Shown here in pieces: positions 11,853-55,439 of a stretch of DNA of 64,000 bases (within the stretch, counting starts at the first letter, position 1; each line of letters begins with the position of its first letter). The notes under the pieces were generated by a model that did not search any database, was not told the DNA's origin, and was given only the letters and a program-made list of their open reading frames with translations. This DNA is from Nanobdellati archaeon. GTDB lineage: Archaea > EX4484-52 > GLR71. Location of the stretch: the NCBI GenBank assembly GCA_019429005.1, contig JAHYJR010000002.1, forward strand, positions 40,752 to 104,751. Reading direction: 5' to 3'. Both the position numbers and the translations under genes were made by a program.

Positions 11853-12023
11853 TATAGATTTTTTCGTTTTTTATGTGAATTAATCTATACAACAGTTTTA
11901 TATATGAATGAGTCACAATTATATACATATAAATAAACAAATAAATACAAATCATTTCTATAATTATCAAAACATACTAATTATTTTAATTTTGTAAATT
12001 GTAAATATAAAACGGTGATATAA

Positions 12024-54069: not shown

Positions 54070-54224
54070 ACTAAAAATAATATAATTTTAATATTTTTAA
54101 ACCTTGCTAATCAATAACTTAATCAATAACTAATAGATTATTAAAATAAAAGAATTTAAAAGAACAAAAAGCATTAACAAAATATATAATATAATACTTT
54201 GATTAACTATTTACAGGTGTTTCT

Positions 54225-55439
54225 ATTTTAAAAATAAATAAACGACAATTAAAAACAATAATAAAAGAATTGAAATCGCTACGTGGTAGACATACCGAGT
54301 TTATAACAATATCAGTCCCAGCAGGATATAATCTTAATGAAATCTCAAACCAAATACGTCAAGAAGCAGGAACAGCATCAAATATTAAATCAAAAAGCAC
54401 AAGAAAAAATGTTGAAAGTGCGTTAGCAAAAATGGACCAAGCATTAAAATCCGTAGCTTATACACCTGAAAATGGTCTTTGTATGTATTGCGGAAATATT
54501 AGTGAACAAGAAGGCGCAACAGATTTAAAATTATGGATGTTTGAACCACCAGAACCAATTAATCTTAGATTATACAGATGCGAACAAGTATTTCTCCTAG
54601 ATCATCTTTATGGACTTATAGAAGAAAAAGACGTCTATGGTCTTATGGCCATAGATAGTACTGAAGCAAGTATTGGTTTTGTTATTGGTACAGGAATACA
54701 CATATCAACACACTTAACATCTCATGTACCTGGCAAAACAGGAAAAGGTGGACAAAGTGCACAAAGATTTGAACGTGTACGTTCAGGATTATTACTAACA
54801 TTTTTAAAACAAATTGGTGAAGCAGCTACCAAAATCTTTGAAGAAAACAAATATCTAAAAGGTATCATTATAGGTGGACCTGGACCTGTTAAAGATAAAT
54901 TTGCTGCAGGTGAATTCTTATCAAATTCACTAAAACGTAAAATTCTTGGTATAAAAGACATGTCATATTCGGGAAATGAAGGTATATATGATCTTGTAAA
55001 TATTTCTGAAGATATTTTAAGAAATTCAAAAATAACTGATGAAAAAGCAATTATAATCAAATTTTTTGAACATTTAAAAAAAGATGATGGTCTTGTTGTT
55101 TACGGTTTTGTTGAAATAAAATATGCACTTGAACTTGGTGCTGTTGATAAGATTTTAATATCTGAAGATTTACCAATAAAAAATTTCTTATTAACCTGCA
55201 ATTCATGTGATTATAAAGAAGAAAAAATTACAAAAGAAACATCATTACCATCACATTGTCCTAAATGTAAAAATCAATTAAATAAAACAGAAAAAACGGA
55301 TTTTATAGAAGAACTTGAAGAAATGGCTATTTCAAAAGGTGCATCTATACTTGAAGTAACTAGTGAATCACCTGAAGGACAACAATTTTTACAACTTGGT
55401 GGTATCGGTGCATTTTTAAGATATAAAATACAAGTATAA
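54225..55439 (+). CDS. prf1: Peptide chain release factor aRF1, probably initiating at ATT 54225
   Basis: NIKS (ASNIKSKSTRKNV), GGQ (KGGQSAQRFERVR), YRCEQVF. The in-frame 5' extension ILKINKRQLKTIIKELKSLRGRHTEF restores the N-terminal helix. AGGTG SD 5 nt before ATT. In-frame TAA at 54204. Confidence 0.93.
   Translation: MLKINKRQLKTIIKELKSLRGRHTEFITISVPAGYNLNEISNQIRQEAGTASNIKSKSTRKNVESALAKMDQALKSVAYTPENGLCMYCGNISEQEGATDLKLWMFEPPEPINLRLYRCEQVFLLDHLYGLIEEKDVYGLMAIDSTEASIGFVIGTGIHISTHLTSHVPGKTGKGGQSAQRFERVRSGLLLTFLKQIGEAATKIFEENKYLKGIIIGGPGPVKDKFAAGEFLSNSLKRKILGIKDMSYSGNEGIYDLVNISEDILRNSKITDEKAIIIKFFEHLKKDDGLVVYGFVEIKYALELGAVDKILISEDLPIKNFLLTCNSCDYKEEKITKETSLPSHCPKCKNQLNKTEKTDFIEELEEMAISKGASILEVTSESPEGQQFLQLGGIGAFLRYKIQV

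Follow-up and report, generated by a model that had tools for sequence, protein, structure and literature searches.

In this work we have examined the start of the gene for the archaeal release factor aRF1 in a window of 64,000 nucleotides from a Nanobdellati archaeon, together with the same gene in other members of its phylum. Translation of the window gene is well supported as starting at the weak codon AUU at 54225, as judged from family models and from alignment with relatives. In most of these relatives the corresponding AUU is followed directly by UAA or UAG and aRF1 continues in the +1 frame, an arrangement through which the factor might control its own synthesis. The window gene is probably an AUU-started aRF1 that has lost this feedback stop.

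The aRF1 gene of the window and its start codon

The window lies in a genome of 1,078,986 bases (1.08 Mb) with 29.7% GC. The product of the gene is a member of the aRF1 family by its TIGR03676 (aRF1 equivalog) score of 441 bits, against a cut-off of 234.7; the three eRF1 domains PF03463/4/5 are present, and the NIKS and GGQ motifs can be read in the translation. The first-pass annotation had proposed that the gene starts at an ATT with no canonical start between the bounding TAA at 54204 and the TTG at 54270, and its coordinates agree with the sequence: the codons after the TAA are CTA TTT ACA GGT GTT TCT ATT TTA AAA ATA AAT AAA CGA CAA TTA AAA ACA ATA ATA AAA GAA TTG, with no in-frame ATG, GTG or TTG between the two. 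The start region as assembled reads CTATTTTAAAAATAAA. It had also placed the ATT at Shine-Dalgarno (SD) distance, 5 nt from AGGTG, which holds against the rest of the genome. AGGTG is a true SD core, because the single 16S 3' end found in the genome is GGATCACCTCC, and no SD spacing precedes ATG more often than AGGTG-N5, which accounts for 39 of about 105 ATG starts with an SD. Of the genomic ATH triplets 0.9% are preceded by an SD at this distance, and with four in-frame ATH codons the chance of an SD-led one in the stretch is about 4%; given that figure from spacing alone, it is the comparative evidence that makes the AUU start convincing. A TATA-like element, AAATATATAA, would imply a leader of merely ~10-20 nt.

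Three alignments begin upstream of the TTG, which is residue 16 of the ATT-started protein: residues 6-402 match positions 2-403 of TIGR03676, the Pfam eRF1_1 match begins at residue 12, and that with the solved aRF1 3agk at residue 2. A start at the TTG was rejected, as it would remove the first helix, as had been claimed, and the beginning of the match to the aRF1 model with it. The gene thus shares with infC-type AUU starts an AUU at SD distance, the lack of a canonical start and a homologous N-terminus.

Table 1. Features of the window discussed in the text (all on the + strand).
Feature	Position	Strand	Basis
SD GGTGA of RNase J-type gene	12014-12018	+	sequence
Putative ATT start of RNase J-type beta-CASP gene, first codon after TAA	12024..12026	+	ATT is TIGR00649 profile position 1
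TATA-like AAATATATAA	54180..54189	+	sequence
In-frame TAA bounding the 5' end of aRF1	54204..54206	+	sequence
Shine-Dalgarno AGGTG	54215..54219	+	anti-SD from 16S end; spacing distribution
5-nt spacer TTTCT between SD and ATT	54220-54224	+	sequence
AUU start codon (well supported), at place of relatives' AUU (AUU-UAR start-stop)	54225..54227	+	alignment, SD spacing
aRF1 coding sequence read from ATT (404 aa + TAA)	54225..55439	+	coordinates verified, family models
UUU UAA, one base downstream of AUU frame, out of frame	54226..54231	+	sequence compared with relatives
First aRF1 helix, missing if the start is TTG 54270	54228..54272	+	family models and relatives align here
TTG, first in-frame canonical start, rejected as start (residue 16)	54270..54272	+	family models

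The putative start-stop in relatives

The sample comprised 34 genomes of the phylum, a set that was the same at the level of phylum, class and order, the relatives being metagenome-assembled where titles are given and many of them fragmented, and it provided 27 aRF1 genes with a readable start. In seventeen of these the start region reads SD-N5..7-AUU-UAR-Y and aRF1 follows in the +1 frame (as UUU ARY; codons TTT AAY/AGC), so that, taking AUU as the start, a stop stands in the initiating frame and the main frame is +1, as in the bacterial gene for RF2. An SD-like element and an NUU-U slip site (AGGTG-N5..7-ATTT) are likewise present, although their spacing is unlike that of prfB. The carriers include genera g2 and g3 of family f1, g11 of f2, family f3, and g10 and g12 of f6; the leader in g3 is AAGGTGTTCTTATTTAAC. 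The seven bases ATTTARY are invariant in the 17, whereas the codon before them (TTA, ATA, GCA or GTA) and the codon after them (GAT, TCT, GAA, ATA, AAA, ACA and others) vary, and shifts of the spacing among N5, N6 and N7 move the AUU and the stop together. Of the ATG genes with an SD, 9-17% have A[AG][CT] as their second codon, and in 23-29% the start is preceded by an A, but a product of these background frequencies overstates their independence and is too optimistic, since the genes share ancestry. The conservation of ATTTARY could also lie partly at the protein level (Phe-Asn/Ser codons) if a GTG upstream initiates in the N6 species. UAA and UAG alternate, even inside g3 (L009), and the following base is C or U in the 17 relatives. 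UGA never occurs at this place in them; aRF1 should read all three stop codons.

In the 324 kb of genome G002 that were sampled, an SD-led start-stop combined with a shifted frame is found at the start of aRF1 and of no other gene (G010, sampled for 400 kb, was likewise covered in part). This search was restricted to gene starts, because a broader scan for start-stops in frame-shifted ORFs gave mostly noise from inside genes.

In the aRF1 tree the layout is found in both deep clades of the phylum, in lineages divided by long branches, though some deep forks are weakly supported; it is lost in f2g4, f4, f5, f7 and the window genus. Where it is lost, an AUH or AUG stands in frame at SD distance (AUU in the window and in L015, AUC in L019, AUG in L010). 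All 20 archaea examined outside the phylum have an in-frame canonical aRF1 start. Comparison of g3 (AGGTG TTCTT ATT T AAC) with the window (AGGTG TTTCT ATT TTA AAA) shows an identical SD, spacer length and AUU, and the relatives' AUUUAA appears as AUUUUAA in the window, where an extra T and other changes put the AUU in frame. The RF2-like cassette is absent from the window gene, ATT TTA AAA being open and in frame. We infer that the out-of-frame UUU-UAA of the window is a remnant of the relatives' start-stop; the weak AUU and its SD would have stayed while the feedback stop was lost.

Candidate AUU, AUA and AUC starts in other genes

The first-pass annotation had suggested a genome-wide survey for SD-led ATT starts, and this yielded 15 ATT, ATA or ATC candidates, drawn from frames without an SD-led canonical start. 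Of 621 ATT, ATA or ATC codons, these 15 have an SD at the proper distance and precede every usable canonical start, as compared with 22 of 3212 for other codons (Fisher p = 0.0003). SD-led ATT was found in frame 20 times in the window genome and 3 and 4 times out of frame. Among the 628 genes scored, SD-led canonical starts number 145 for ATG, 18 for TTG and 6 for GTG; many genes of this genome have no SD.

The weak start is therefore not peculiar to the release factor, as RNase J, PorC, enolase, methionyl-tRNA synthetase (MetRS) and others share apparent AUU, AUA or AUC starts. In the RNase J-type gene (Table 1; G000:C4:52775 in genome coordinates) and in PorC (profile NF006321) the ATT corresponds to position 1 of the family profile. 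For enolase and MetRS the next ATG would cost 67 and 125 residues, respectively, but both also have an in-frame GTG within the SD, which makes them weaker cases alone. AUA or AUU occupies the same conserved SD-led position of MetRS in several genera (G000:C12:3111; L145, L148, L151-L155, L163, L165), and L153 has its GTG in another frame. We also noted apparent ATT or ATC starts in PorC, an NrdG2-like protein, a signal-peptide-like protein and an AstE/AspA-like protein (G000:C8:125947-126486 (-), C11:70244-70960 (-), C7:16566 and C10:56518), with the next canonical start 11-90 codons on. In G010 an aIF2 alpha-like gene (C1:184218-185024 (+); IRRYEEWPEKGELVMVKIVEVRPNS), whose identity was judged by eye, has an apparent ATC start after GGGTGAAGAAC, with a GTG inside the SD likewise in frame. 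A repetitive YFKSYFKS in a long open frame at about 8170 of G000:C6 looks like a short tandem DNA repeat and not a gene.

It may be that in this small archaeal phylum the ribosome, when positioned by an SD, can start at AUU, AUA or AUC. What could make start selection so lax? In Sulfolobus aIF1 favours canonical starts (PMC6237735), but loss of aIF1 was ruled out as the cause, the factor being present in 32 of the 34 genomes, including that of the window. If our reading is right, gene callers limited to ATG, GTG and TTG would mis-start or truncate the essential aRF1, MetRS, enolase and RNase J genes in the phylum, which would offer natural material for studying AUU, AUA and AUC initiation in archaea.

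A possible feedback at the initiation codon

The first-pass annotation had regarded a weakly started termination factor as a natural autoregulatory target, by analogy with E. coli infC and RF2; this does not apply to the window gene itself, in which AUU is simply in frame with no stop next to it, and it finds indirect support in the 17 of 27 relatives' genes with the RF2-like arrangement. Feedback is suggested because, in aRF1's own gene, the codon after the start is a stop recognized by aRF1 itself, and the conservation of the layout points to autoregulation at the start-stop. In most members of the phylum the aRF1 mRNA would start at AUU and meet UAA or UAG as its next codon. With aRF1 plentiful, termination at the start-stop would leave little aRF1 made; with aRF1 scarce, the initiator complex would slip by +1, from AUU to UUU, and read on into aRF1. 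The net effect would be a negative feedback as in bacterial RF2, but exerted on the initiation codon. The sequences themselves establish the position, the frames, the SD, the conservation and the taxonomic spread; AUU initiation, the slip and the sign of the feedback are deduced from them. We lean towards the account as a whole, from AUU initiation, start-stop, +1 slip and feedback to their loss in the window; that the whole phylum controls aRF1 in this way, with a near-cognate AUU before UAA or UAG and a +1 shift only when aRF1 is scarce, we hold to be an evenly balanced proposition. Because UUU is a poor match for the initiator anticodon CAU, it is not evident that the complex could readily slip onto it from AUU, and a further point against the slip is the distance from SD to slip codon, at least 5 nt as compared with 3 nt in prfB. 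We found no reports of aRF1 frameshifting or of AUU starts in archaea in the open-licence literature. If the proposal is right, movement of the initiator complex by +1 at the initiation codon would be a process undescribed in the open-licence literature that we searched.

Could the relatives instead start aRF1 at UUU (SD-N6), with no frameshift, and keep AUUUARY for, e.g., an unstructured start context? UUU is in the aRF1 frame at a usable SD spacing (2-4) in 17/17 and requires no slip. However, SD-led UUU is not enriched in frame (16 versus 5 and 16 in the window genome; 4, 3 and 4 in G010), unlike AUU in the window genome, and such a start leaves unexplained both the invariant A before UUU and the limit of codon 2 to AAY/AGC. 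Moreover, loss of the layout brings AUU, not UUU, into frame (window, L015), and we consider the UUU start unlikely. AUU is favoured as initiator over UUU or GTG by the frame loss of GTG, the in-frame AUH/AUG replacements and the lack of SD enrichment at UUU.

Another arrangement would begin in the same way, with a start at AUU and a stop at UAR, after which the same ribosome restarts one base on; aRF1 would then raise its own synthesis. An RF2-dependent start-stop of this kind has been demonstrated in E. coli at AUGUGA/GUGUGA sites (PMC9841429). There, however, the second start is a good NUG and here it would be UUU, and one would less readily expect a release factor to be under positive feedback, which leaves termination-reinitiation improbable.

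Canonical starts may also be used after all, the GTG inside AGGTG (leaderless-like) in the relatives and TTG 54270 in the window. The many genes without SD in the window genome would suit this, and in the N6 species (g3 except L006, g12, f3) the GTG does share the aRF1 frame (GTG TTC TTA TTT AAC). However, L018 (N7 to TTT), L012 and L016 (N8), L006 (AAGGTAG), L029 and the window either lack this GTG or have it in another frame, while all of them keep the SD and ATTTAR (ATTTTAA in the window). Since spacing changes put it out of frame or lose it, the GTG was ruled out as a shared start. In L018, L006 and L011 the first helix ends before any other canonical start is reached, and the window TTG truncates the family model, so that we give canonical starts equally little credence. 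We also considered a longer zero-frame leader ORF as in prfB; it is not general, as L006, L007, L009, L021-L023, L028 and L029 have a stop a few codons before the site and no canonical start in the interval, although an upstream canonical codon does exist in others (ATG in L005 and L012/L016; GTG in L018; TTG in L008 and L011/L013/L014).

Finally, an assembly error that hid a true ATG or another base count in the window is very improbable, for although the site is an A/T run (CTATTTTAAAAATAAATAAA) in a fragmented assembly, relatives from independent assemblies, in the comparative alignment that had been proposed, also lack an ATG there and have SD-N5-ATT in common with the window, the same start type recurs in many other genes of the window genome, and deletion of one T would fail to give back the layout seen in the relatives.

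Comparison with known systems

AUU starts with an SD are known from E. coli infC (IF3) and pcnB, infC being an autoregulatory weak start. A true parallel to infC would mean discrimination by an initiation factor, and aIF1 is present. The window genome differs from these in having AUH starts in many genes, and aRF1 is not known to act in start-codon choice.

Recoding is known in archaea, e.g. the -1 frameshift of the Sulfolobus alpha-fucosidase, where the full protein also needs a frameshift but the mechanism differs; no release-factor gene turned up among the archaeal cases looked at in a review (PMC8211752). Closer to the proposed start-stop is the E. coli narQ GUGUGA (PMC9841429), in which the stop overlaps the start codon, the frame is chosen at initiation and the outcome depends on a release factor. 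It has two NUG codons in place of AUU and UUU, and the expected sign of regulation is opposite.

The closest parallel is bacterial prfB, with its slip site CUU-U and a stop followed by C (PMC12421855). Both are release-factor genes with an SD-like sequence just upstream of an NUU-U slip site, an in-phase stop readable by the factor itself, a pyrimidine after it and coding that goes on in +1; both layouts appear ancient, with repeated losses. In contrast to prfB, where the stop is at codon 25 or so, the stop here directly follows the initiation codon; it is UAA or UAG instead of UGA, the slip site is AUUU instead of CUUU, the SD lies 5-7 nt from the slip codon, and the frameshift is a predicted one. 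Since aRF1 is archaeal and unrelated to RF2, the bacterial and archaeal factors would, if our account is right, have independently evolved feedback through a stop codon that each reads itself.
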